A stretch of 64,000 nt of DNA from contig NZ_JAUOEK010000131.1 of NCBI RefSeq assembly GCF_030540835.1, forward strand, positions 1-64,000, in the 5' to 3' direction. Within the stretch, counting starts at the first letter, position 1. Every line of letters begins with the position of its first letter. Source of the stretch: Flavivirga aquimarina. GTDB taxonomy: Bacteria > Bacteroidota > Bacteroidia > Flavobacteriales > Flavobacteriaceae. The position numbers and the translations under genes are program-made. This document shows positions 48,614 to 62,535 of the stretch, piece by piece. Under the pieces are notes generated by a model. The model saw nothing but the letters and a program-made list of their open reading frames with translations, was not told the origin of the DNA and searched no databases.

Positions 48614-51600
48614 TTATTTTTTATTTCTAACAATAAAAATTGGTAAATAAAAAAATATACCTATTAACGAGAATATTAATCCACCAATAGATCCAACTGC
48701 AAATGAAAACCAAAAAGCTTCATTTTGCCCATTCCAAACAAAAGGGACTAGACCAACAATTGTTGATATTATAGTTAGAGTTACAGGAATTATTTTATAG
48801 TTAAATGCTTTAAAAAAAAGTGATTGGATATTTCTTTTTTGGTGTTGTTTTCTTAAATTATTATAGTCGTTAATAATGTATAATGCCGAGTTCACACTAA
48901 TTCCACAAAGCAAAATAAAAGCAGCATAACCCCCTTGGTCAAAATTAAATTCAAACAAATAAAAAGTTAAGAATACACCAATAAAAGAAATAGGAATCAT
49001 GCTTATAATCGCTAAAGGTTGTTTTAACGATTCTAAAAGGATACTACATATGAAGAAAACAATAACAATAACTATTAATATATAGAAATACTGTTTACTG
49101 TCTTCTTTATTCCATCTATTAAATAATTGATTAAAGGTTCTATACCCCATAGGTAACTTGTTTTTTAATTTTTCTATATTGTTTTCTTTTACTTTATTTG
49201 CTAATTGATAAGAACCAATAAAATTATAGGAAACAATTAAGCGATACTGTTGATTTGTTTTTGAAATAGAATTTCCTGTTTTTCTCTTTTCAATAGCTGC
49301 CAATTGGTCTAATTTATATTGTTTATTTTGAATAGAAATTGGAGTATGTTTTAAATCCCATACATTAAATTTTTTATAATTATCAGACACCAACTTTACT
49401 TGTTGTAATTCATTGTCTTGAACTATAGATGTTAATATTCCTGTATACACTTGGTTTTTTAAATAACTATAAACTTGCGTTTGAGAAACATCTGCTATGG
49501 CTAGTTTTTCTATATCAAAATCTAAATAATACTCATTAAGGACATTATTTCCCCTACGGCTGCCACTAATCTCAACATCTTTTATCCTGCCAAAAGAATT
49601 TTTAATAAGTTGCTTTTTTAAAAATTCTGCATAACCATATAATTTGTCATAATTATAACCTTCTATCTCAATTATGTTACTTTTATACCCTGTGCCTAAA
49701 GCATTAGAAAAACCTCTACCAACGCCACTAACAGACCAATCTAAACCACCTAGACTATTAACTTTAGATTCTAATAGACTTTTTAATGTATGCGGGAAGG
49801 AACCTCGTTCAAATTCATCTTTAAAATAAATCGAAATACTAGAACTTTTATGACTATTAATTCGGGTCTCATAAAGCTCTACTTCTTCAAAAAGTCCTAT
49901 ATAGTTTTCCATTTTAATAATAACATCATTAAGCTGTTCTATAGTACAGCCGTCAGGCATACTACCTGTTATCCTGAGTGTAGTCCGTTCTGGTTCGTTG
50001 TAATAAGAGTTTTTAAAGACATCTTCTGTAAACAATCTTAAAGAACCTCCCAAAATGGTTTCTAAAGTAGGACGCATTTCTGTATTAAACCATTCATTTC
50101 CGAGGATTTTATTATAGGTACTTGCTAAATGACCTTCCCCTTCTATAAATTTTGGTAGTAAATGTAAAGGCAAGCCAAAACCTAAAACAACAAGGATTAT
50201 AAATATCCATTTAAATTTTGGTTTCCGCATCCATGTTATTATGTTCGTGTATTTTCTGGTAAATTTATATACACGGCGTTTTCGTTTTCTGGAGAATTTA
50301 ACACGCTTATGTTCTAAATTAATTTTTTCTAATAATGCAGGAACATAATACAGAGATATTAATAAAGACACACCAATATTGATAGCTATAACTAAAGCAA
50401 AATCCCATAAATTATTACGCTGACTTTCCTCCAATAAAAATACAACCATTAAAGCTCCAATGGTTGTTAATGTTGCTGCTAAAATGGCTAAAAACACCTT
50501 TTTATCACCTTTGTTTCGTAAGTGATCAATCATAATGATACTATTATCTATGATAATTCCAAACGAAATAGTAATACCTGCAAAAGAATATAGTTGGAGT
50601 TCTACCTTAAATAGATAATAAAAAACAACAGCTATTAAAAGGTTTGTTATAATACTTAAGAATAATACAGCTAAATATTTAAAACTTCTATTTATCAGAA
50701 TAATTAAGACTAACAAAATTAAAAAAGAAAAAAAGGTTCTCAATCCTATTTTTCGCAGTTCTTCAACAATATAGTCAGTCGTGTCTTGTGTTAGTTTTAT
50801 GGAATAACCTATTGGAATATCCTTTTTTATCACCTCTACAAGATTTCTAACTTCTTTTACTAGTGCTATGGTATTAACATCTTTTTCTGCAGAAACAACC
50901 AGATTAACCGTGTTTAAACCATTAACTCTATAAAAGTTACGCATTGCTCCTTCTTTAAACCTTACTTTTGCTAAATTTTTTAAATAAATAATTTTGTTAT
51001 TTTTTTTTATGGGGATTTCTTTCCAAATAATAGCATCATCTTCAAGTTTATGTTTTAAAACTACAGCTATTTCCTGTATTGTTTCACTGTATTTTGAAGT
51101 TATAATACCATTTCCTAATGCTTTTGTTTGCAAATATTCGTTTATGGCTGAGTTAATATCATTTACGGTGATGTTGAGTTGTATTAATTTTTGGCTATCA
51201 TATTCTATAACCCATTCAAAAGGAGCAGCTCCATATACATTAATTTGATTAATTCCTTTAATATTTGATAATTTCGGAACAATATAATTTTCGGCATATT
51301 TTTTAATATGGTATGGGCTTTCATTAGCGTTAACACTATAAGAAATAATAGGGGCATTATTTTCGTTTGCACTACTTAACGACAGTTGAGGGTAACTTAC
51401 ACCTTCAGGAAGTTCAGAATAACTTTGTCGGATTAAGTTTGCTATTTCAAAACGAACCACATCTATATCAATATTTTTCTTAAAATTGATAGAAATAGAA
51501 CCTCTTCCTTTATTAGAATATGAACTTATTTTTTTAACGCCTTTTATGGTATTAAAAACACCTTCTAATTTAGAGGTTACCTCTTGTTCCAGAACTTTAG

Positions 51601-51778
51601 AGGAGGCATCTCGCCAACTAAAAGACACACTTAAAGTTGGTGACTTTTTTGAAGGTATTAACTGGACACTTAATAAGGGTATTAAGCTGGCACCAATAAT
51701 GGAAAGGCAAACAAAAATTAGAATAATAGAAAAGGAGGACGGGTTACGTTTCATATTATAATTATTGTTTTGTGGCAT
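48614..51778 (-). CDS. RND efflux permease (second pump of the operon)
   Basis: The 1054-residue protein is an inner-membrane RND transporter. It shows the N-terminal helix, porter-domain segments (SFSWRDASSKVLEQEVTSKLEGVF, GINQINVYGAAPFEWVIEYDSQKL), helix 4 with FGIIIDNSIIMIDHLRNKG, a second half starting near RKPKFKWIFIILVVLGFGLPL, and the closing GGLIFSLIGIFFYLPIFIV. It lies 129 bp after the TolC gene in a HlyD/RND/TolC/RND set. It is clearly different from the first RND (53428-56499), so the pair may form a mixed trimer, as seen with MdtBC-like pumps, or serve different cargo; this is inference. Confidence 0.92.
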   Translation of the reverse strand: MPQNNNYNMKRNPSSFSIILIFVCLSIIGASLIPLLSVQLIPSKKSPTLSVSFSWRDASSKVLEQEVTSKLEGVFNTIKGVKKISSYSNKGRGSISINFKKNIDIDVVRFEIANLIRQSYSELPEGVSYPQLSLSSANENNAPIISYSVNANESPYHIKKYAENYIVPKLSNIKGINQINVYGAAPFEWVIEYDSQKLIQLNITVNDINSAINEYLQTKALGNGIITSKYSETIQEIAVVLKHKLEDDAIIWKEIPIKKNNKIIYLKNLAKVRFKEGAMRNFYRVNGLNTVNLVVSAEKDVNTIALVKEVRNLVEVIKKDIPIGYSIKLTQDTTDYIVEELRKIGLRTFFSFLILLVLIILINRSFKYLAVLFLSIITNLLIAVVFYYLFKVELQLYSFAGITISFGIIIDNSIIMIDHLRNKGDKKVFLAILAATLTTIGALMVVFLLEESQRNNLWDFALVIAINIGVSLLISLYYVPALLEKINLEHKRVKFSRKRKRRVYKFTRKYTNIITWMRKPKFKWIFIILVVLGFGLPLHLLPKFIEGEGHLASTYNKILGNEWFNTEMRPTLETILGGSLRLFTEDVFKNSYYNEPERTTLRITGSMPDGCTIEQLNDVIIKMENYIGLFEEVELYETRINSHKSSSISIYFKDEFERGSFPHTLKSLLESKVNSLGGLDWSVSGVGRGFSNALGTGYKSNIIEIEGYNYDKLYGYAEFLKKQLIKNSFGRIKDVEISGSRRGNNVLNEYYLDFDIEKLAIADVSQTQVYSYLKNQVYTGILTSIVQDNELQQVKLVSDNYKKFNVWDLKHTPISIQNKQYKLDQLAAIEKRKTGNSISKTNQQYRLIVSYNFIGSYQLANKVKENNIEKLKNKLPMGYRTFNQLFNRWNKEDSKQYFYILIVIVIVFFICSILLESLKQPLAIISMIPISFIGVFLTFYLFEFNFDQGGYAAFILLCGISVNSALYIINDYNNLRKQHQKRNIQSLFFKAFNYKIIPVTLTIISTIVGLVPFVWNGQNEAFWFSFAVGSIGGLIFSLIGIFFYLPIFIVRNKK

Positions 51779-51907: not shown

Positions 51908-53422
51908 TTAATCATCTAAAATAGTATTGAAATCTTGTTTTAAATTATTACCACTCATAAAATTAAATAATGTTAATTGTTGTACTCCATAGTAGAGCGT
52001 CCAATAGCTTTGTAAGCTTTGTATATAATTTTCAGTTGCTAATTGCCATGCCTGTCTAGAGCTACTTAGGTTCAATAAATCTACCTGCCCAGACAAAAAC
52101 CTTTTTTCTGTTATTTTATAAGATTCTTTAGAAATTTCGCTGGTTCTCAATGTACCCAATACCAATTCTCTTTGAAGGTTAAAATCGTTAACCTTTATGG
52201 TAATATTTTGTTTATAGGTATCTTCATCTTGCTGCAGTTCAATATCGATAACTTCTTTGTTCATTTTTGCTGTTTTAATATTGCCTTTTCGTTCTCCCCA
52301 ATCTAGAATGGGAATATTTAATTGAATAGCAACCATTTCCTGTTCTAAAAAATTACCATATACCGCATTAAATGTATTTCCTTGTTGATTTAGTCCATAA
52401 CTAGCTGTTACAAACAAATCGAAACGGTTATTTTTAATAGCTTGGTCTAAATCTCTTAGCGCTTTTACTTTGCGCAATTTTAAATTTAAAATATCCGGAT
52501 TATTAGTATTGGCATACCTAATAGCATCATCAACGTTTATTTGTAAATTTGAAATTAATTCAGGTAATTCTGGAACCATTTTAGAAGGGAGATCAACTCT
52601 TAAAAATAATATTAATTCTGCTTCTGCTTTTTCTAAAACTTGTTCGTTTTGGGTTAGTTTTGTATTGGCATTATACACATCTAACTCTAGATTAAGTAAA
52701 TCGTCCTTTTCTATAGATCCAATATCGTAGCGCTGTTTACCTATTTTAAACAGCTTTTCGGATGACACTTTATTTTCTTGTGCTATTTCAAGTTTTTTAC
52801 TAGCTAATGCCCAACTAAAAAATAAATTAACTGTTTTTAAATTAATAGCTTGCATCTCATAGATAAAATCTTGTTTTGCTTTTTCGTACTCAAGAGGCGC
52901 TATTTTATGTTGCCATTTAAATTCGTTAAATGCCATTAATGGTTGTATAAGACCTACACTAATAGGTGTTGCGTTATAACTTTCATTAGCCAAAGCGCCG
53001 TAATTTTCTAATCTATTAAAAGTAGAGTTTATATATAAATTGGTTCCTGTGGCTCTTATATTTTGAGTAACAGAAAGATTAGCATAGCTATTTAAGTTTT
53101 GTTGTGATCTATAAACATCTATGTTTAACTCTGAGTCATAACGTTGTATTACCGATCTATTATACGTTAATGGCTGCAGGGTAAAATCTACTTTCGGCAG
53201 TAAGCTAGACTTGAATGATTTAAATCCCCAATAGCTTACACCATATTCACGTTTGGCTTTAAAAGCATCAAGGGATTTTTTATTGGCTAAATTTAAGACA
53301 TCATTAAGTGTCAATATTTGTTTTGGATAATCAATAATACCCTTGTTTTGAGCATTTGTTATCGAACTAAACAGAACACAACAAATAAGAAGGATAAAAT
53401 GCCTTGATATATTTTTTAACAT
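51908..53422 (-). CDS. TolC-family outer membrane efflux protein
   Basis: The 504-residue protein has a signal peptide (SITNAQ cleavage) and TolC-type coiled-coil helices in two repeats (LNDVLNLANKKSLDAFKAKREYGVSYWGFKSFKSSLLPKVDF; later YANTNNPDILNLKLRKVKALRDLDQAIKNNRFDLFVTASYGLNQ). VAIQLNIPILDWGERKGNIKTAKM and the C-terminal RFLSGQVDLLNLSSSRQAWQLATENYIQSLQSYW match the family. It begins 5 bp after the first RND gene, so it supplies the outer membrane channel for that pump, with the HlyD protein at 61429. Confidence 0.93.
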   Translation of the reverse strand: MLKNISRHFILLICCVLFSSITNAQNKGIIDYPKQILTLNDVLNLANKKSLDAFKAKREYGVSYWGFKSFKSSLLPKVDFTLQPLTYNRSVIQRYDSELNIDVYRSQQNLNSYANLSVTQNIRATGTNLYINSTFNRLENYGALANESYNATPISVGLIQPLMAFNEFKWQHKIAPLEYEKAKQDFIYEMQAINLKTVNLFFSWALASKKLEIAQENKVSSEKLFKIGKQRYDIGSIEKDDLLNLELDVYNANTKLTQNEQVLEKAEAELILFLRVDLPSKMVPELPELISNLQINVDDAIRYANTNNPDILNLKLRKVKALRDLDQAIKNNRFDLFVTASYGLNQQGNTFNAVYGNFLEQEMVAIQLNIPILDWGERKGNIKTAKMNKEVIDIELQQDEDTYKQNITIKVNDFNLQRELVLGTLRTSEISKESYKITEKRFLSGQVDLLNLSSSRQAWQLATENYIQSLQSYWTLYYGVQQLTLFNFMSGNNLKQDFNTILDD

Positions 53423-53427
53423 ACAAT

Positions 53428-56400
53428 TTATTTTTTAACTAGATAATAATAACAAAGAGGAATAAAATATAAACTTACTAGTGTACCTAATAGCATACCT
53501 CCTATTAAGCTTATTGCCAAAGGCGCTTGTAATTCTGCTCCCAAACCACTAGAAAATAGTAAAGGGATTAATGCTAGAATAGTTGTTAAACTCGTCATAA
53601 GTATTGGTTTTAATCGCCTTTCCCCTGCAACTAATAGTGCTTTCATTAAAGAGCTGCCTTTTCTTTGTAATTGAATAATAGTATCTACTTTTAAGATGGA
53701 ATCGTTAATGATAATTCCACACATAACGACAATGCCAATCATGGACATTAAATTAATGCTCATACCAAATAGTTTTAGAAACAAAAAAGCACCTGCTAAA
53801 TCTAATGGAACTTCAATTAGTATAATAAGGGGCATTAAAAAGGATTCAAATTGAGAAGCTAAAATGAAATAAAGTAATACTAAAGAAATAAGTAAGACAA
53901 TTTTTAATTCGTCAATGAGTTCTTGATTGGAAAAAAAGCTTCCACTAAAACTAACATCATACCATTTGTTCTTTGACACAATGTCTTTTACACTGCTTAT
54001 AGTAGACTCCATATCATTATCTTTTATTTGCAGTTCCAAAGGGAAGTATTCTCCTTCCTTTCCTCCGCTAATTGTTTTTAAACCTTTAGAAGTCGTCACT
54101 TTAACAAAGTCTTGCAGATGAAACTCGGCATCACCTTCAGAGGTTATCATGGTTTCGCTTAATACGGCTTCAATATTTTTTTTTGTACTCCCTAAAATAA
54201 CGGGCACAAAATTCTGATTGTCTATAATAGATAGTATTTCTCGTTCGTTAAATGCACTTTTTAGGGTATTAAATAATGTATTAGCATTTACACCATAAGT
54301 CATAAGTTTCTCCTTATCTACAACTAAAGCCATATAGTCTTGCCAAGCTATAGGTTTTAACTCTAAATTATTAAGATGCTGTTGCACATTATACCATATA
54401 TTTTGAAGTTGGGTGTTTTGATAACTTCCTATGTTTGTAACATGCCTAAGATGTGCGACTAACGGGGCTTCATCGTCAGAAAATATTAAATTAAAAATAT
54501 TATCAACAGCTTTATATTCATAAAGCGCTGTTGGATGCTTATTAAGTATAAAATGACTTATCTCTTTTTTAACTTTAGCTAATAATTCAGGGGCTTTACA
54601 TTGTAAATAAATGGTTGTTTCTGAGGTTCTTGCTTCTGTTTCTTTATTTAATACAAATTGTTGGGTTCCTACAAGAGCAGTATTATCAATTATATTGTCG
54701 TCAACAAATTCTAATAGCTCTAAAACTCTGCGTTTATTCTCTTCTACATTTATTTGATTATTCCAATCTATTTTTAGCAAGGTTTCGGAAGTTGAAAAAT
54801 TAGGCATTGTCGTTTTTGGTAATGTCATAAACAAACCTATGGCAACTATTAATAAAAGCAAACAAAGGCTCCAAGACATACGTTGTTTACGCATCACCCA
54901 TCTAAACCCCTTTTCATACAAAACAGCATAATCTAGCGTATTCTTGTTAGCCAGAAAACGACTTATTCTATCAATTTTATTGGTGTCTTTAAAATGAAAC
55001 AAACGATATAATACAGGTAATAAAGTAACCGAAACAAGTAAAGATGCGAATAGACCGGTAGTTACTGCCATAGCCTGATCGTAAAATAAAGCACCACTAA
55101 TACCGCTTAAAAAAACTAATGGTAAAAATACGGCACAGGTTGTAAGCGCAGAACTAAGCAAAGGTTTTAAAACTTCATTAGTACCCAAAATACAAGCTTT
55201 TGAGAGGGATTCTCCCTGCTCCCTAAATTGTGTAATATTATCAATAACAATAATGGAGTTATCTATCATCAAACCAATACCCAAAACCAAACCAGAGAGT
55301 GAGATAATATTAATAGAAATACCAAACAATTGAAAACAGAGTAAACTAATAATTATAGAAATAGGTATAGTAACCCCAATTAACAAAGGCGATTTAACAT
55401 TTTTTAAAAATAAAAACATAATCCCAAATGCTAAAAAGATTCCCCACAGTAAACTTTGAAGCAAATTATTAATGGCATAGTCTAACAGTTTTGTTTGATC
55501 TCTAGTAATGGAAAAACCTATATTGGGATAATCTTCTTCTAAATAATTTAAAAGCGTATTTAAGGCTATTTTTAAATCGCCCATGCGAGCATCACTTTGC
55601 TTTATAATAGCCATAGTAATAGCTTCATGACTATTAGAAAGTGCCAAACCCGTTCTACTTTGCGGATGCTCTAATACTTGTGCTAAATCTTTAAGCTGAA
55701 AAAGTCTGTTGTTTTTATTTATATAAATATTTTCAATTTCTTGAATATTATTTAACGACATTCCTAATCGCACGTCGTATTGATATTGGTTATCTTTAAT
55801 TAATAAACTCCCAATCTTTAAATCGTATTTTTTAATGGCAGATTCTAATTCATCTAAGCTTATATTTAAAGCACTTAGTTTATCATAGTTAGGGATTATT
55901 AAAATTTCAGGAGCTACCAAACCACTAACATCGACCATAGCCACTTCACCAATTTGTTCGATACGTTTACGAATAACATGATTTGCAAATCTGTTAAAAT
56001 CAACAAACTTTTGTGTTACTGGGTATAAATCGTTTTGAGCAGGTTCTTTTACTTTTTTAGAAGCTGACTTTAGGTACATATTCAAATAAAATACAGGCAC
56101 ATCGGTAGCACTAGCTTTAATAACTTTTGGGCGTTTCATAGTTTTAGGGAAACTGCCCATAGCTCGATCTATTTTCTCATTAACTTCTATAAAGGAATAA
56201 TCTATTTTAGTACCGTGATTAAAACTTAACCTTAAAATGGCTTTTTCACTACTGGTTTCTGTTGTAATGTCTTTTAAATGGCTTACCTGCATTAAGTTTC
56301 GACGTAACTGCTTAACCACTGCATCTTCTAATTGTCTAGCCGACATGTTTTCTGCAGAAACTTGCACCGTAATTTCTGGAATATCAATATCTGGCATTAA

Positions 56401-56499
56401 AGACACGGGTATAAGTCCAAAGGCGTAGATACCCAAAATAAGGATGCCTAAGGTGCTCATTAAAACAGCTATGGGCTTATCAATTAGAAATTTTACCAT
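53428..56499 (-). CDS. RND efflux permease (first pump of the operon)
   Basis: The 1023-residue RND protein starts MVKFLIDKPIAVLMSTLGILILGIYAFGLIPVSLMPDIDIPEI. It has LVLGIGLMIDNSIIVIDNITQFREQGESL at helix 4 and the matching GIVVMCGIIINDSILKVDTI in the second half, both typical of HAE/CzcA-like transporters. A copy of its first part lies as a scar at 59192-59407. Three genes (thioredoxin-like protein, propeller, NVEAL-like peptide) sit between it and that scar. The pump could export the product or peptide linked to the inserted cassettes; this is not proven. Confidence 0.93.
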   Translation of the reverse strand: MVKFLIDKPIAVLMSTLGILILGIYAFGLIPVSLMPDIDIPEITVQVSAENMSARQLEDAVVKQLRRNLMQVSHLKDITTETSSEKAILRLSFNHGTKIDYSFIEVNEKIDRAMGSFPKTMKRPKVIKASATDVPVFYLNMYLKSASKKVKEPAQNDLYPVTQKFVDFNRFANHVIRKRIEQIGEVAMVDVSGLVAPEILIIPNYDKLSALNISLDELESAIKKYDLKIGSLLIKDNQYQYDVRLGMSLNNIQEIENIYINKNNRLFQLKDLAQVLEHPQSRTGLALSNSHEAITMAIIKQSDARMGDLKIALNTLLNYLEEDYPNIGFSITRDQTKLLDYAINNLLQSLLWGIFLAFGIMFLFLKNVKSPLLIGVTIPISIIISLLCFQLFGISINIISLSGLVLGIGLMIDNSIIVIDNITQFREQGESLSKACILGTNEVLKPLLSSALTTCAVFLPLVFLSGISGALFYDQAMAVTTGLFASLLVSVTLLPVLYRLFHFKDTNKIDRISRFLANKNTLDYAVLYEKGFRWVMRKQRMSWSLCLLLLIVAIGLFMTLPKTTMPNFSTSETLLKIDWNNQINVEENKRRVLELLEFVDDNIIDNTALVGTQQFVLNKETEARTSETTIYLQCKAPELLAKVKKEISHFILNKHPTALYEYKAVDNIFNLIFSDDEAPLVAHLRHVTNIGSYQNTQLQNIWYNVQQHLNNLELKPIAWQDYMALVVDKEKLMTYGVNANTLFNTLKSAFNEREILSIIDNQNFVPVILGSTKKNIEAVLSETMITSEGDAEFHLQDFVKVTTSKGLKTISGGKEGEYFPLELQIKDNDMESTISSVKDIVSKNKWYDVSFSGSFFSNQELIDELKIVLLISLVLLYFILASQFESFLMPLIILIEVPLDLAGAFLFLKLFGMSINLMSMIGIVVMCGIIINDSILKVDTIIQLQRKGSSLMKALLVAGERRLKPILMTSLTTILALIPLLFSSGLGAELQAPLAISLIGGMLLGTLVSLYFIPLCYYYLVKK

Positions 56500-56570: not shown

Positions 56571-57128
56571 TTAATCATTAAATCGCTTTTTTATATATTC
56601 AAAAAAAGATTTGTTTTCATTTTTTTTATGCATTTTAAAAACATAAGAACTAGAAATATTCATCTTTGGTGTCATAGTAAAAAATAGAGCCAAATTATTT
56701 TTAATCTCTAAAGCATACTTATCCCATATATTTTGAGTTCCAGAAATAAAAATCAAGTACCCGTCATATCTTCTAAAAAGTAAATTATTTTGCTTCTCAT
56801 CTAACCCTGGTGTAATTATTATTATTTTGGAGTCATTAGCTTTTTTTGCTAATTCATAAATATCAGTCAAAGCATTATCTATGCATGTAGTACATTCATC
56901 TTTAGAATAGAAAAAAAATAGTTTCTCTTCTTGTATACATAAATTATTGACTTTTGTCAATAAATTTTTATTATGATTTAACATATTGGTTATAGTTAAT
57001 TCTAATGCTTTATTTGAAAAAACATTATTATCCTTAACCAAATCTTGGTTGATATCGGTATTCAATTTAGTTATACAGCTAAGCGATATAATGCAAAGAG
57101 AGACAATTATTACATGATTTATTCTCAT
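56571..57128 (-). CDS. Thioredoxin-like lipoprotein with CTTC motif
   Basis: The 185-residue protein has a lipoprotein signal (CIISLSC, Cys 18). Its core resembles a thioredoxin fold: EEKLFFFYSKDECTTCIDNALTDIYELAKK with Cys79 and Cys82, then KIIIITPGLDEKQNN and GYLIFISGTQNIWDKYALEIKNNLALFFTMTPKMNISSSYVFKMHKK. The CTTC pair sits where a redox CXXC would be. It starts one base after the propeller stop, so it belongs to that cassette, which also encodes a six-cysteine secreted peptide. A role in making or breaking that peptide's disulfides is a reasonable guess. The other cassette has no such gene. Confidence 0.72.
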   Translation of the reverse strand: MRINHVIIVSLCIISLSCITKLNTDINQDLVKDNNVFSNKALELTITNMLNHNKNLLTKVNNLCIQEEKLFFFYSKDECTTCIDNALTDIYELAKKANDSKIIIITPGLDEKQNNLLFRRYDGYLIFISGTQNIWDKYALEIKNNLALFFTMTPKMNISSSYVFKMHKKNENKSFFEYIKKRFND

Positions 57129-58376
57129 TTACTTTAATGGTTTATATTGAAGGATATATGGGTTAGCATCAACATTACCATCATATTCAAAATAGGACGT
57201 AAGTTCATGCCTTCTCTTTTTTTCATCTTCATAATGGTTCAATCTTGAATCATTAATATAGTTGTCTATATCAACAGGGTAGATATAACAGGAAGGGGTA
57301 CCGTTCATAGAAAAATCAGGAAGAAGTTCTGGTGTATTTATATTTAGCCTTCTCGATAAAGGAACCATGGATCTATTTTGGATTATTTTTTTATTAATTT
57401 TATCATATATAAATCTATAAACATATTCTTTTTTGTTTTTTATTTTAGTATACTTACCAGTAATGTAACTGTCATATTCTTGAAAATTAGATATAGAGGG
57501 TATTTTTAGTTCTTTTGCCTTTTTCATCTGATTTCCATATTTTTCACTATCATATAAAAAATTATCAGGTTTATTATCTTCATATCCTACAAAATTTATT
57601 TTATACAAGGGTGTAAAAGTTTCTGAATTTATTTTATAAACAGTATCATTATATTTTTCAACGAATCGATACTCACCTTTCTTTCTTTTTGAGAAGCCAT
57701 ACAAATAATGAGAACCCGCTTCGGGGTTTTTAGAAACTAAATATGGCAAGTATTTTTTTATATCTTTCCCCGTATAATTGGTGCTATAAACCCTGAAATT
57801 GGTGTTTTCGTTTTCACTTTGTTCAACATATCCTTTATAAAAATATCTCTTACTTTTTAAACTACAGAAACTCTTTGCTGTATAAGGCAATTTTGTTCTC
57901 TCCTTAAAATTTCCTAGTGAATCATAAACTATAAAATCACGCCCCATATTAGCAATAATTTCTATATCTCCATTGTAATCATTTACAGCTCCATAAACAA
58001 TTTTAGTATACTCGTGTGGGCCTCTGCCAATTTTTTTTAATTTAAATTTAAACGTTCCTTTACTATCAAAACATGTTACACTATAGTCTGTACCTGAGTC
58101 TATTATGTAAATATTATTGTTGTAATAATCTACTCTATAAACATTTGTGATTAGTGAAATAGGTTTAGTCTCTAGCTTAATAAGTTTTTCTTTTTTGAAT
58201 ATAGAATCAAAACTTGTTATAAAGATATTTTTATTAATTTCAAAATTTAGTGTTTTCGCATTATTACTTAATGCTACTGTTTTGTGCGTATTCCTGCTAT
58301 CTATTTTGCATTTAAAAAAAGAAATGGATATTAAAAGGAATAATAAATATTTTTTTAGTTTAAAGTTTTTATACAT
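57129..58376 (-). CDS. Six-bladed beta-propeller lipoprotein (cassette A)
   Basis: The 415-residue protein has a lipoprotein signal (SFFKC, Cys 23) and repeated blade patterns typical of the Bacteroidota six-bladed beta-propeller group (DUF4934-like): LITNVYRVDYYNNNIYIIDSGTDYSVTCFDSKGTFKFKL, GRGPHEY at residues 117-123, and YNGDIEIIANMGRDFIVYDSLGNF. Genes of this group often neighbour NVEAL peptides. It follows the peptide gene at 58485 by 108 bp. It is only weakly similar to the cassette B propeller outside the shared GRGPxEY block. A binding or protective partner role for the peptide is possible but unproven. Confidence 0.85.
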   Translation of the reverse strand: MYKNFKLKKYLLFLLISISFFKCKIDSRNTHKTVALSNNAKTLNFEINKNIFITSFDSIFKKEKLIKLETKPISLITNVYRVDYYNNNIYIIDSGTDYSVTCFDSKGTFKFKLKKIGRGPHEYTKIVYGAVNDYNGDIEIIANMGRDFIVYDSLGNFKERTKLPYTAKSFCSLKSKRYFYKGYVEQSENENTNFRVYSTNYTGKDIKKYLPYLVSKNPEAGSHYLYGFSKRKKGEYRFVEKYNDTVYKINSETFTPLYKINFVGYEDNKPDNFLYDSEKYGNQMKKAKELKIPSISNFQEYDSYITGKYTKIKNKKEYVYRFIYDKINKKIIQNRSMVPLSRRLNINTPELLPDFSMNGTPSCYIYPVDIDNYINDSRLNHYEDEKKRRHELTSYFEYDGNVDANPYILQYKPLK

Positions 58377-58484
58377 TAATTGTTTGTTTTAATTTTTTTT
58401 AAAATAATGCCATTAAGTATAATAATACTCATAATTGAATCTTAAAAACTATCGTATATAATAATTAATGGCATTAAATATTAA

Positions 58485-58913
58485 TTAATTTCTATTCTCG
58501 CATGATAGATCATTCCATAAACAAAGTCCGAACCCACTAGAACATACTCTTTGTGTTTTATTTTGCGTCTCCCATTCAAACTCACATGCATGGAAACCAG
58601 GAATCCCATTAAAAGTAAAAGCACCACAGTAAACTTCGTTAGGAAGCATATTAATTCCATTACGAATCCATCTCATTTTTCCAGTCAGGACTTTAACTTC
58701 TTCTGTCCCACATATCGGGTAATTTGATTTCCAACCACCTCCAGCACTAGAACCACCATCACTACTACTTACATCATCTGAGCCTGAAGCCATAGCTTGT
58801 TCACTCACCATTACAAAAGGATCCTCTAAAGTTACTTTTACATTTATGGCTAATGCCAATAAAAACAAACCAGCTGCGGCTAGCTTTACTATTTTATTTA
58901 CTTTTGTATTCAT
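58485..58913 (-). CDS. NVEAL-like secreted peptide precursor, six-cysteine mature part (cassette A)
   Basis: The 142-residue protein has a 43-residue leader with one hydrophobic helix (KIVKLAAAGLFLLALAINV) followed by TLEDPFVMVSEQAMAS, like the NVEAL-type leaders of Bacteroidota. A Ser/Gly/Asp linker follows (GSDDVSSSDGGSSAGGG). The mature part has six cysteines (68, 96, 110, 124, 131, 138), enough for three disulfides. The leader is identical, except at residue 34, to that of the peptide at 60751-61191, while the mature parts share almost nothing. It is probably exported, and the neighbouring CTTC lipoprotein may help it fold. No function is known. Confidence 0.82.
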   Translation of the reverse strand: MNTKVNKIVKLAAAGLFLLALAINVKVTLEDPFVMVSEQAMASGSDDVSSSDGGSSAGGGWKSNYPICGTEEVKVLTGKMRWIRNGINMLPNEVYCGAFTFNGIPGFHACEFEWETQNKTQRVCSSGFGLCLWNDLSCENRN

Positions 58914-59182
58914 AATTAAATATTTAATTTATTAAATGTTTGGCACGGTTTAGTAAGTGCTATTTACTAGGTCGTGCTTTTTTTGTTAAAGGTTACGTAT
59001 ACTAATTTACTATTACACACGCCTTATGTTTCCGTTAATAAGTTATACGCAAACACAAGTATTTTCTTTTCTTAATTTATTTAATTAAAACATTGCGGCC
59101 CTCCTTTCTTGTTTTATTATATTTATTGTAACTCTGTTTTATCGTATTATTTTGCATAGGATTCTTTTATACTTTTAATGTC
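58786..59182. repeat. Duplicated leader and upstream region, copy A
   Basis: This 397 bp stretch matches 61064-61464 at over 90 percent by eye. It covers the 5' end of the peptide gene (leader codons), its upstream region with a hairpin, and a fragment of the 3' end of the hlyD gene. The match starts sharply at GAAGCC, within the mature-peptide boundary, and ends at TAATGTC, where copy A changes into RND sequence. Confidence 0.9.
58943..58984. other. Conserved hairpin plus T tract upstream of the cassette A peptide
   Basis: On the plus strand, 58943-58957 (GCACGGTTTAGTAAG) pairs with 58963-58977 over 15 positions, four of them G-U, around a TGCTA loop, and is followed by seven T. In the minus direction, that of the peptide gene, the G-U pairs become A-C mismatches. 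It could end an antisense RNA or act as a leader element. Confidence 0.45.
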
Positions 59183-59191
59183 TTACTTGCA

Positions 59192-59407
59192 TTAAATTTC
59201 GACGTAACTTCTTAACCACTTAACTACTGCATCTTCTAATTGTCTAGCCGACATGTTTTCTGCAGAAACTTGTACTGTAATTTCTGGAACATCAATATCT
59301 GGCATTAAAGACACGGGTATAAATCCAAAGGCGTAGATACCCAAAATAAGGATACCTAAACTGGTCATTAAAACAGCTATGGGCTTATGAATTAAAAATT
59401 TTACCAT
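59192..59407 (-). pseudogene. Truncated duplicate of the RND gene 5' end
   Basis: The 71-codon frame starts MVKFLIHKPIAVLMTSLGILILG and matches the first 63 residues of the RND pump at 53428-56499 with six changes. The homology then shifts frame because of an 8 bp insertion near 59216 (CTTAACCACT repeated in part). It ends at 59182, where the sequence becomes the 3' end of hlyD (59150-59182). It has no use as a pump. It marks the joint of a tandem duplication. Confidence 0.9.
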
Positions 59408-59584
59408 ATTTTTATAAAAAAGATTTATTTATTTTAATATTGTGCTCAAATTCTACTAAATCTCAAGCTTCTTACTCCATTATACAGCCTAACAAAGCAA
59501 AACAAAAAATTAGATGATTCTTAGATTTAATTCTTTATTGAAAGGGTTCAGTATCACAGGCTGTGACATCTCCAAATATTTTAA

Positions 59585-60682
59585 TCAATTTTTAAATTTG
59601 TAAAAGAATAAAGTAGAATTATCAGAAATTAATATATTATTAATTTGCTCTCTTAAGTTTTTACTAATTAAATTGTCTTGTTGAATGTTTTTAATCATGG
59701 ATAATAGATGGCTATCTACTGTAGCCACAAAATAATCATTGTAAATAGTTTTTGGTGTTCCTAAAGAAAAAAGACCTATATCATTTTTTATTGATTCCAT
59801 AGAAACATTATTCTTTTTATCATAAACAACTCGGTTTATTCTATTTTCATCATTGAATTCAAAAAAAACATAAGATTTTGTCTCTAAAAAATCACTAAAT
59901 AAACTAAATTTTTCACTGTATTTAGAAGAAGATTCGCTAATATCAACTTGTTCTTTATCTTTATAAAAATTAAATAGTGTATACCCTTCTACCTGAAGTC
60001 CCTTTGTAAAAGCATATGCCGTATTTCTCTGTTTTGGTGTATAAATAATTCTTTCTCCGTTTTTTGTTAAATGGTTCAATTTTGAACCTTTAGCATGTTT
60101 TTCTGAATTCTTAAAAAATTTTCTTATTTTTTTTGTTTTTATATTAAATGAAATTATTTCGTAATCATAATTAGACGTATTTCTTTTTTGTCCAGCATGA
60201 AAAATTATTTCGTCACCTATTTTTTCTATTTCATCAGCAAAAAATGGTATTACTATAGAGTTCTTATAAAGACCTGTGTTTTTATCGTAAAGAAAGATTT
60301 TTCTTCCACTAACGTCATATATATAAATGTATGTCTCATCAATAACAAAATCTTGTAATGTTACATATTCATTTGGTCCTCTCCCCATTTTACTAATTCG
60401 ATTTACAAACCCCCCTTTTAAATCGTAACAATTTATTGAGGTATCATCTGAGACAAACACCTGTTTCCCCTTGATAACAACCTTTTTAATCACATCAAGA
60501 AGGTTGCTAGGAGCGGTTTCTAATGGAACATAATAGCATGTATCTATAAGCTTAGAAATCAAATATGTTTTATCTTTTATAAATGGTATTTTTAATTGAT
60601 AATTCATAGCTACTTTTTGTTCTTTTTTGCATGCAATAAAAACAAAAAAAGAAACTAAAACATAATATTTTATTTTACTCAT
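59585..60682 (-). CDS. Six-bladed beta-propeller lipoprotein (cassette B)
   Basis: I start at ATG 60682 (MSKIKYYVLVSFFVFIACKK, lipobox Cys 18), which gives 365 residues. The longer frame from 60838 would run backwards over the peptide gene and lacks a signal. Blade repeats include VIKKVVIKGKQVFVSDDTSINCYDLKGGFVNRIS, GRGPNEY (residues 100-106), and VIDETYIYIYDVSGRKIFLYDKNTG. It belongs to the same DUF4934-like group as the cassette A propeller, but the two are strongly diverged. It lies 68 bp after the peptide gene at 60751-61191. A specific partner role with that peptide is inferred from the pairing in both cassettes. Confidence 0.85.
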   Translation of the reverse strand: MSKIKYYVLVSFFVFIACKKEQKVAMNYQLKIPFIKDKTYLISKLIDTCYYVPLETAPSNLLDVIKKVVIKGKQVFVSDDTSINCYDLKGGFVNRISKMGRGPNEYVTLQDFVIDETYIYIYDVSGRKIFLYDKNTGLYKNSIVIPFFADEIEKIGDEIIFHAGQKRNTSNYDYEIISFNIKTKKIRKFFKNSEKHAKGSKLNHLTKNGERIIYTPKQRNTAYAFTKGLQVEGYTLFNFYKDKEQVDISESSSKYSEKFSLFSDFLETKSYVFFEFNDENRINRVVYDKKNNVSMESIKNDIGLFSLGTPKTIYNDYFVATVDSHLLSMIKNIQQDNLISKNLREQINNILISDNSTLFFYKFKN

Positions 60683-60750
60683 AATAACTATATTTTTGTT
60701 AAGAGAATGCCAAACTAAAATTAGTTTGGCATCTCTTAGTTTATTAAAAT

Positions 60751-61191
60751 TTAATTGGTTGGGCATCCTCCACTTGCGCATGTTTCCCAATCTTGTTGTA
60801 GACATTCTACCTCTTGAACTACTGACGTACCAAGACAAACAATTTTATATTGATCTGCCGGGCCATATTCTATTGAGACTCCTGAACCTAATTCTATACT
60901 TGAATCAAATATATCCCCAACTTTTATGGTTATACCTCCACTTAGAGTACCACTTATTGAAGTTATAATATTTACAGAACGTGTACGTATATCTTTGATT
61001 TTATAAAAATTTGCAGAAACACCATCATCAGTATCATCACTAGAATCACTACCACCACCATCAGAAGCCATAGCCTGTTCACTCACCATTGCAAAAGGAT
61101 CCTCTAAAGTTACTTTTACATTTATGGCTAATGCCAATAAAAACAAACCAGCTGCGGCTAGCTTTACTATTTTATTTACTTTTGTATTCAT
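60751..61191 (-). CDS. NVEAL-like secreted peptide precursor, four-cysteine mature part (cassette B)
   Basis: The 146-residue protein has the same leader as cassette A (residues 1-43, differing only by Ala34 for Val34). An acidic linker follows (SDGGGSDSSDDTDDG), then a different mature part of about 85 residues with four cysteines at 119, 130, 138 and 143, all in the last 28 residues. The middle section is rich in beta-forming residues (TRSVNIITSISGTLSGGITIKVG). It is the first gene after hlyD. It is probably exported. Function unknown. Confidence 0.82.
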   Translation of the reverse strand: MNTKVNKIVKLAAAGLFLLALAINVKVTLEDPFAMVSEQAMASDGGGSDSSDDTDDGVSANFYKIKDIRTRSVNIITSISGTLSGGITIKVGDIFDSSIELGSGVSIEYGPADQYKIVCLGTSVVQEVECLQQDWETCASGGCPTN

Positions 61192-61464
61192 AATTAAATA
61201 TTTAATTTATTAAATGTATGGCACGGTTTAGTAAGTGCTATTTACTAGGTTGTGCTTTTTTTGTTAAACGTTTATCGTATACTATAATTTTTGATATTGT
61301 ACACGCCTTATGTTTCCGTTAATGGGTTATACAAACACAAGTATTTTCTTTTCTTAATTTATTTAATTAAAACATTGCGACCCTCCTTTCTTGTTTTATT
61401 ATATTTATTGTAACTCTGTTTTATCTTATTATTTTGCATCGTATTCTTTTATGCCTTTAATGTC
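61064..61464. repeat. Duplicated leader and upstream region, copy B
   Basis: This is the partner of 58786-59182. Here the region is in its original setting: the right end lies within the 3' end of an intact hlyD, and the left end within the leader of the cassette B peptide. The distance between the two TAATGTC ends is 2282 bp. Confidence 0.9.
61221..61263. other. Conserved hairpin plus T tract upstream of the cassette B peptide
   Basis: This is the same hairpin as at 58943-58984. One C in the right arm is changed to T, which turns a G-C pair into a G-U pair on the plus strand but would break the pair on the minus strand. Eight T follow. The preserved pairing favours a plus-strand RNA, but only one informative change is available. 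Confidence 0.42.
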
Positions 61465-62535
61465 AACATCGGTATCATTCGCTAAGTTTAAATTACCAGA
61501 AACAATAATGGTATCTCCTGGTTTTAAGGAGGCACTACTTTTATCGGGATGTGGTATTACTGTATATTCATTACTGTTTTCATTAGTGGTTTGTACATAA
61601 GTCCAATAGGTTTTTTTAGATTTAAATGCGAATAACACTTCTTGATTTTGTCTTAAAATAACGGCTTCTTTTGGGACGATAAATTGATTAGGAACGTCTT
61701 TTTGAATAAATACTTTGACATTCATCCCTTCTAACAAATTCCCATCATTTTTCACTTTCGCCTTTACCAAAATAGTACCGTCTTCTTCAACTATTGGGTT
61801 AATGGTAACGATATGGCCCTCATATTTTTTATTGAGCGCAAAAGGCAGCATTTGAATTTTAGTATTTATAGATATTTCACTAATTTCTGACTCTATTAAA
61901 TAAAACTCAACCTCAAAAGCCGTATCATTTATAAGTGTCATAACAACTTCTCCTGTAGAAATTTTATCATATTGTTTCATTTCTATATTGGCAACTTTAC
62001 CATTAAAAGGCGCTTTTAATTTTACAGCTTTTAAATTAAATTTGGCATTTTCTAACTCATGTAATGCATTTTTATAGCCAGAACGAATAGCTAACATATT
62101 GTACTCCTTTTTAGGGATGCTGTCTTCATGAAATGATTCGTATCCTCGACCAATAAGTTTATCTTGAAATTCTAATTCGCTTTTTTTTAAATTGATTTCA
62201 GTTTTTGTAAGAGCCTGTTGGTAGACGAAGGACTTTAAAGTTGCCAGTGTTTGTCCCTTTTTAACATAATCGCCATTATTTACAAATAATTTTTCAAGGG
62301 TTTCTGTAACGTCAAACTTTAAATTGTTTTTTTGAAAAGCAACCAATTTACCATTACTTACTATTTCCTTTTTAAAAACTCTTTTTTGAAGAATCATAAC
62401 GTCAACTTCATTCTTTTCTGGAAGAAATTGCTTTTTTTCTATAATATCTGCTTCGGGCATCTGTTTTTCCTCTTTACAGTTATAAACCGAAAAAAAACAT
62501 ATGCTAACTATAATAAACTTCTTAAACCTATCCAT
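61429..62535 (-). CDS. HlyD-family periplasmic adaptor lipoprotein of the RND system
   Basis: The 368-residue lipoprotein (FSVYNC lipobox, Cys 20) is a membrane fusion protein. It has a lipoyl-type half (FDVTETLEKLFVNNGDYVKKGQTLATL), a short alpha-hairpin (QALTKTEINLKKSELEFQDKLIGRGYES), the second lipoyl half (KLKAPFNGKVANIEMKQYDKISTGEVVMTL) and the beta-barrel domain (GHIVTINPIVEEDGTILVKAKV). It joins an RND pump to TolC. Its natural neighbours, RND and TolC, lie 5 kb away past the two peptide cassettes, and its 3' end was copied in the duplication. It starts 29 bp after the GT39-like gene. Confidence 0.92.
   Translation of the reverse strand: MDRFKKFIIVSICFFSVYNCKEEKQMPEADIIEKKQFLPEKNEVDVMILQKRVFKKEIVSNGKLVAFQKNNLKFDVTETLEKLFVNNGDYVKKGQTLATLKSFVYQQALTKTEINLKKSELEFQDKLIGRGYESFHEDSIPKKEYNMLAIRSGYKNALHELENAKFNLKAVKLKAPFNGKVANIEMKQYDKISTGEVVMTLINDTAFEVEFYLIESEISEISINTKIQMLPFALNKKYEGHIVTINPIVEEDGTILVKAKVKNDGNLLEGMNVKVFIQKDVPNQFIVPKEAVILRQNQEVLFAFKSKKTYWTYVQTTNENSNEYTVIPHPDKSSASLKPGDTIIVSGNLNLANDTDVDIKGIKEYDAK

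Follow-up and report, generated by a model that had tools for sequence, protein, structure and literature searches.

A recurrent locus of pump, signal peptidase and exchangeable peptide-propeller cassettes in Flavivirga aquimarina, a candidate secretion system for small disulfide-bonded peptides

The window is the whole stretch of DNA analysed, 64,000 nucleotides of the marine flavobacterium Flavivirga aquimarina (GCF_030540835.1, contig NZ_JAUOEK010000131.1, positions 1 to 64,000, forward strand). On the minus strand, the gene order is hlyD, peptide 1, propeller 1, broken RND1 start, peptide 2, propeller 2, CxxC lipoprotein, RND1, TolC and RND2. Past the window, a glycosyltransferase-like membrane protein, LepB, a third propeller and a third peptide gene are encoded on the same contig; LepB and the third cassette (contig 65443-67043) lie 0.1–3 kb past the window edge. 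The features are as follows.

48614-51778, minus strand: RND2 permease (PF00873, 340 bits); in relatives usually adjoins LepB
51908-53422, minus strand: TolC-type outer membrane channel (PF02321)
53428-56499, minus strand: RND1 permease (PF00873, 572 bits)
56571-57128, minus strand: CxxC thioredoxin-like lipoprotein, third gene of cassette 2 (Redoxin, E=0.013, below cut-off)
57129-58376, minus strand: propeller 2, DUF5128 lipoprotein of 415 aa (PF17170, 118.3 bits; fold match 4raa)
58485-58913, minus strand: peptide 2, 142 aa, with leader as in peptide 1 and a 100-aa mature part containing 6 Cys
58786-58994, minus strand: constant leader and 5' region, copy 2 (98% to 61064-61272)
59050-59182, minus strand: hlyD 3' tail with the region upstream of the cassette, second copy, a duplication scar (95% to 61332-61464)
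59173-59408, minus strand: broken copy of RND1 5' end, a duplication scar of 236 nt (90% to own RND1)
59585-60682, minus strand: propeller 1, DUF5128 six-bladed beta-propeller lipoprotein of 365 aa (PF17170, 101.2 bits)
60751-61191, minus strand: peptide 1, 146 aa, with a 42-residue leader ending AMA and a 104-aa mature part containing 4 Cys
61064-61272, minus strand: constant leader and 5' region, copy 1 (98% to 58786-58994)
61429-62535, minus strand: hlyD, RND periplasmic adaptor lipoprotein (TIGR01730, 139 bits, cut-off 94.9)
Contig 64085-65233: LepB, type I signal peptidase (S26, PF10502, 127 bits)
Contig 65443-66690: third propeller, DUF5128 (160.7 bits)
Contig 66699-67043 (L004:4699-5043): third peptide gene, with leader as in peptides 1 and 2

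RND permease, periplasmic adaptor and TolC channel are encoded together, as in an RND tripartite pump. No ABC gene of the MacAB permease/ATPase type is present among the locus ORFs, and no C39 peptidase-ABC gene at the window locus. The gene coordinates confirm that two peptide and propeller cassettes lie between hlyD and the RND pump, as the first-pass annotation had stated. LepB retains SME with the catalytic Ser, KRCIG with the Lys, and GDN, the motifs of a type I signal peptidase. At least two further S26 genes are found elsewhere in the genome. The DUF5128 genes of the genome number three, all at this locus. The third cassette may be silent, since its peptide gene has ATA where both sister genes have an ATG start.

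The leader of the peptide, the region upstream of it and the final ~36 nt of hlyD are covered by direct repeats of 209 nt (98% identity) and 133 nt (95%); when joined, they match at 93.3% over 403 nt, gaps included. Chance origin of repeats this long is excluded. Leaders of peptides 1 and 2 are nearly the same (0.98 of self), and their mature parts reach only z=2.0 against shuffles, the similarity ending just past the A-M-A of the leader. Propellers 1 and 2 are likewise dissimilar (0.09 of self). Leader DNA and upstream region had been described earlier as over 90 percent identical, and mature peptides and propellers as having little in common; both statements are borne out. The further idea of a constant leader with variable cargo holds within this genome and fails across species, where the leader differs.

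In the constant 5' region (window 58940-59110 and 61220-61390), a Shine-Dalgarno-like AGAAAGGAGGG precedes an ORF of two codons (ATG TTT TAA); a little ahead of the peptide start lies a hairpin (GCACG...CGTGC). No Rfam match was obtained for this region. Pfam and NCBIfam searches of the peptides gave only weak or chance matches. The peptides had been called NVEAL-like; the resemblance stands, but the NVEAL model (PF14055, cut-off 27 bits) matches neither window peptide, none of 27 aligned peptides and nothing in the own genome. The leader ends AMA-S, not GG, and is not of the double-glycine type. A-x-A was one of the selection criteria for peptides, and its universality is no independent evidence. 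Toxin families were not matched by locus proteins in profile searches, nor known defence models in PADLOC. Of 44 mature peptides, 42 have an even Cys count, as do 21 of 22 clusters; among control ORFs from these loci, 96 counts are even and 67 odd. Judged from these counts, the mature peptides are probably disulfide-bonded. Two peptides are short and truncated-looking, one with 0 Cys (L055:14411-14605) and one with 1 Cys (L050:3913-4101), the latter being one of the two exceptions to even Cys.

Propellers 1 and 2 belong to DUF5128, well above the PF17170 cut-off of 22.9 bits. Propeller 2 is nearest to a propeller of a G008 cassette (50% identity, 0.48 of self, versus 0.09-0.13 to neighbouring propellers). 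Specific homology between peptide 2 and the peptide of that G008 cassette was considered and is not convincing (p=0.014, not best match). The propeller model (pTM 0.63) is closest in fold to BF0058 (PDB 4raa) and DUF4221 (PDB 3s9j), followed by the ligand-binding Bacteroides propeller lipoproteins BT1954, BT2095 and XusB. In the CxxC lipoprotein, both Cys of the motif are invariant in 8 homologues; the protein is absent from some cassettes. Its fold model is too poor for use (pLDDT 49).

Whole peptide 1, used as an orthologue query against 60 relatives, found no match outside its own genome, because leader and cargo both change; hlyD was used in its place as the anchor for the locus search. 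Homologues of hlyD occur in 8 of 12 genomes of the genus and, patchily, in about 5% of sampled family genomes (21/395). At 56–81% identity they adjoin cassettes in other flavobacteria; named matches include Seonamhaeicola, Hyunsoonleella, Arenibacter and an uncultured Flaviramulus. Across many flavobacterial genera, hlyD, RND1, TolC, LepB and RND2 are co-located with cassettes, usually one to five. The usual cassette order is peptide, propeller lipoprotein and often CxxC lipoprotein. Cassettes lie upstream of hlyD, in the hlyD-RND1 gap (also in G164 and G228), after TolC or beside LepB. Two Bacteroidales genomes have NVEAL peptide loci with the same partners. Within the genus, strong DUF5128 matches are restricted to pump-bearing genomes. 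DUF4221 propellers are also present in relatives' loci; in G011, such a propeller accompanies pump and LepB, yet no peptide was detected.

Several loci have additional neighbours. In L017, L018, L020 and other loci, the pump is accompanied by a TPR-containing Wzy_C O-antigen-ligase protein and by a lipoprotein of transglutaminase/F5-F8 type; neither was recognised at the window locus. These proteins might modify the peptides. L053 (G514:C18:7500-27400) has a related hlyD-RND1-TolC-RND2 set with two propellers; its immediate neighbours are a C39 peptidase-ABC exporter, HlyD, a LanC-like protein and a glycosyltransferase, which may indicate a RiPP connection. G044 and G057, small 1.7-Mb genomes of another family, have 7-9 DUF5128 propeller matches.

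Mature peptide and propeller are inherited together, in agreement with the pairing noted in the first-pass annotation. Their similarities correlate across 44 cassettes (Mantel r=0.50, p=0.0002) and between genomes with peptides permuted only within genomes (r=0.515, p=0.0002). Removal of leader similarity changes the correlation little (0.494). Cassettes are modular, as had been supposed: in the sister species G005 and G011, flanks on both sides are 96-97% identical, and a site that spans 48 bp in G011 is occupied in G005 by one additional cassette of 2.7 kb (peptide, propeller, CxxC). The leader follows LepB rather than the pump. Partial correlation of leader with LepB given hlyD is r=0.51 (p=0.0004), and 0.42 (p=0.0006) with Arenibacter left out. 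The window LepB is 61% identical to that of Arenibacter and 27-41% to the rest, and the INVKVTL-type leader of the window is shared by Arenibacter alone; the nearest homologues of the window hlyD (79-81%) come from genomes whose leader and LepB are of another type. The correlation and the types shared with Arenibacter point to a peptidase matched to its leader.

With somewhat better than even confidence, the locus is read as a system dedicated to the secretion of small disulfide-bonded peptides, in which cargo cassettes can be exchanged and the propeller is the cognate partner. The peptide with its membrane-spanning leader would cross the inner membrane by Sec export, and the leader would be cut after A-x-A by LepB, the locus's own type I signal peptidase. 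Disulfides would form in the periplasm, perhaps aided by the CxxC lipoprotein. The mature peptide would then leave the periplasm via a HlyD-RND1/RND2-TolC conduit. Cleavage by LepB, oxidation and export are proposed by analogy with MacAB-TolC and MdtBC. The propeller would be the binding partner of the peptide, as receptor, chaperone or immunity protein, and the biological role could be antagonism or signalling. Counted against dedicated secretion is that co-inheritance could result from linkage alone; RND pumps are also better known for small molecules. The unpaired propellers, G011 with its lack of a detected peptide, and the cassettes devoid of a CxxC lipoprotein weigh in the same direction. 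Read most cautiously, pump, peptidase and peptide cassettes make up a conserved locus whose function is a hypothesis. The broadest reading is Bacteroidota-wide secretion of disulfide-bonded peptide families by a dedicated signal peptidase and a heteromeric RND conduit, with mature part and cognate propeller swapped between strains as cassettes, leaders matched to the local peptidase, and strain-specific antagonism or signalling as outcome; it is offered tentatively, as slightly less probable than its opposite.

Polymorphic antagonism, with mature peptides as bacteriocins or contact-free toxins and propeller lipoproteins as cognate immunity proteins, is possible but rather unlikely. It agrees with a diverse mature part co-inherited with the propeller, with several cassettes per genome, patchy presence (21/395 family genomes), gain and loss of whole cassettes, and the C39 peptidase-ABC exporter and LanC-like gene beside the related pump of L053; neither defence models nor toxin families were matched, and the propellers are large for immunity proteins. 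Unpaired peptides or propellers in relatives had been named beforehand as evidence against cognate pairs and were found in part: 7 of 49 propeller-HMM matches have no upstream peptide, and tandem related peptides share one propeller. Since some propellers are unpaired, a strict effector/immunity reading is not established. Alternatively, the peptides may be released signals or ligand-capture peptides, retrieved alone or with bound ligand by the propeller as a surface receptor. One-to-one peptide-propeller pairing in most cassettes and the fold matches to BT1954, BT2095 and XusB accord with this; such matches are generic for propellers, however, and among the cassette genes none was recognised as a TonB-dependent receptor. 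This alternative is considered unlikely. Linkage only, in which neighbours evolve jointly without physical partnership beside what is by accident a drug pump, draws on the default co-inheritance of adjacent genes and on the unpaired propellers. It is judged improbable: the leader is a neighbour as well, yet correlates less than the mature part (0.32 vs 0.52), and pump, LepB, RND2 and cassettes recur jointly in many genera and two orders.

For the window layout, the scars, namely copies of hlyD tail and RND1 head, would be explained if one hlyD-to-RND1 segment had simply been duplicated in tandem and had then diverged, with no exchange of cargo. This is very improbable; divergence alone would spare no leader, whereas leader DNA is 98% identical and mature parts and propellers are unrelated, and propeller 2 is closest to the G008 cassette rather than to its neighbours. 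A short stretch common to both joins the copied RND1 start to the copied hlyD tail, and the layout goes back either to tandem duplication of the hlyD-to-RND1 segment or to integration of a second allele of it. Because leader DNA is near-identical while cargo is not, recombination within the leader region probably swapped the cargo. The placement of cassettes between hlyD and RND is a product of recombination and does not define the system. The earlier picture of cassettes interrupting an ordinary efflux operon is to be replaced: pump, LepB and cassettes recur together as a single locus, in which cassette positions differ among relatives.

Peptide, propeller, peptidase and pump are here joined into one system, so that a role can be tested for each of them in flavobacteria as well as in Bacteroidales. 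Should export be confirmed, it would establish Sec-then-RND as a route taken by ribosomal peptides and would supply strain-specific ones. The first-pass annotation knew of no described system with this layout, and in open-licence PMC papers no description of such a peptide-secretion system was found, nor any paper on NVEAL/NVEALA, DUF5128 or DUF4221 by family name.

Among known systems, Bacteroidales NVEAL (PF14055) loci likewise have short Cys-bearing peptides, propellers and LepB, with a leader ending EALA; in one locus hlyD is 36% and RND1 42% identical. They also contain Wzy_C-TPR and transglutaminase-type genes, and differ from the window locus, whose peptides do not match the NVEAL model. 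BF0058 and DUF4221 are alike in fold to the propeller, and their entry titles state no function. C39-peptidase ABC exporters with double-glycine leaders share HlyD and a leader with variable mature peptide; the window locus differs in lacking a C39 ABC gene and in its A-x-A leader end. MdtBC is an RND heterotrimer (PMC8277102). MdtABC has one adaptor and two different RND permeases, as at the window locus, where the permeases are far below the MdtB/MdtC equivalog cut-offs and are linked to peptide cassettes and LepB. Export of Escherichia coli heat-stable enterotoxin II by MacAB-TolC is Sec-dependent, and leader cleavage and disulfide formation precede periplasmic pick-up (PMC8277102). This system and Aat/Cex export of dispersin and CexE resemble the present proposal in small protein, Sec stage and tripartite pump acting from the periplasm. 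Both use an ABC pump; the window locus, for which export is only predicted, combines RND permeases with a dedicated signal peptidase and adds a propeller lipoprotein and cassettes that can be exchanged.
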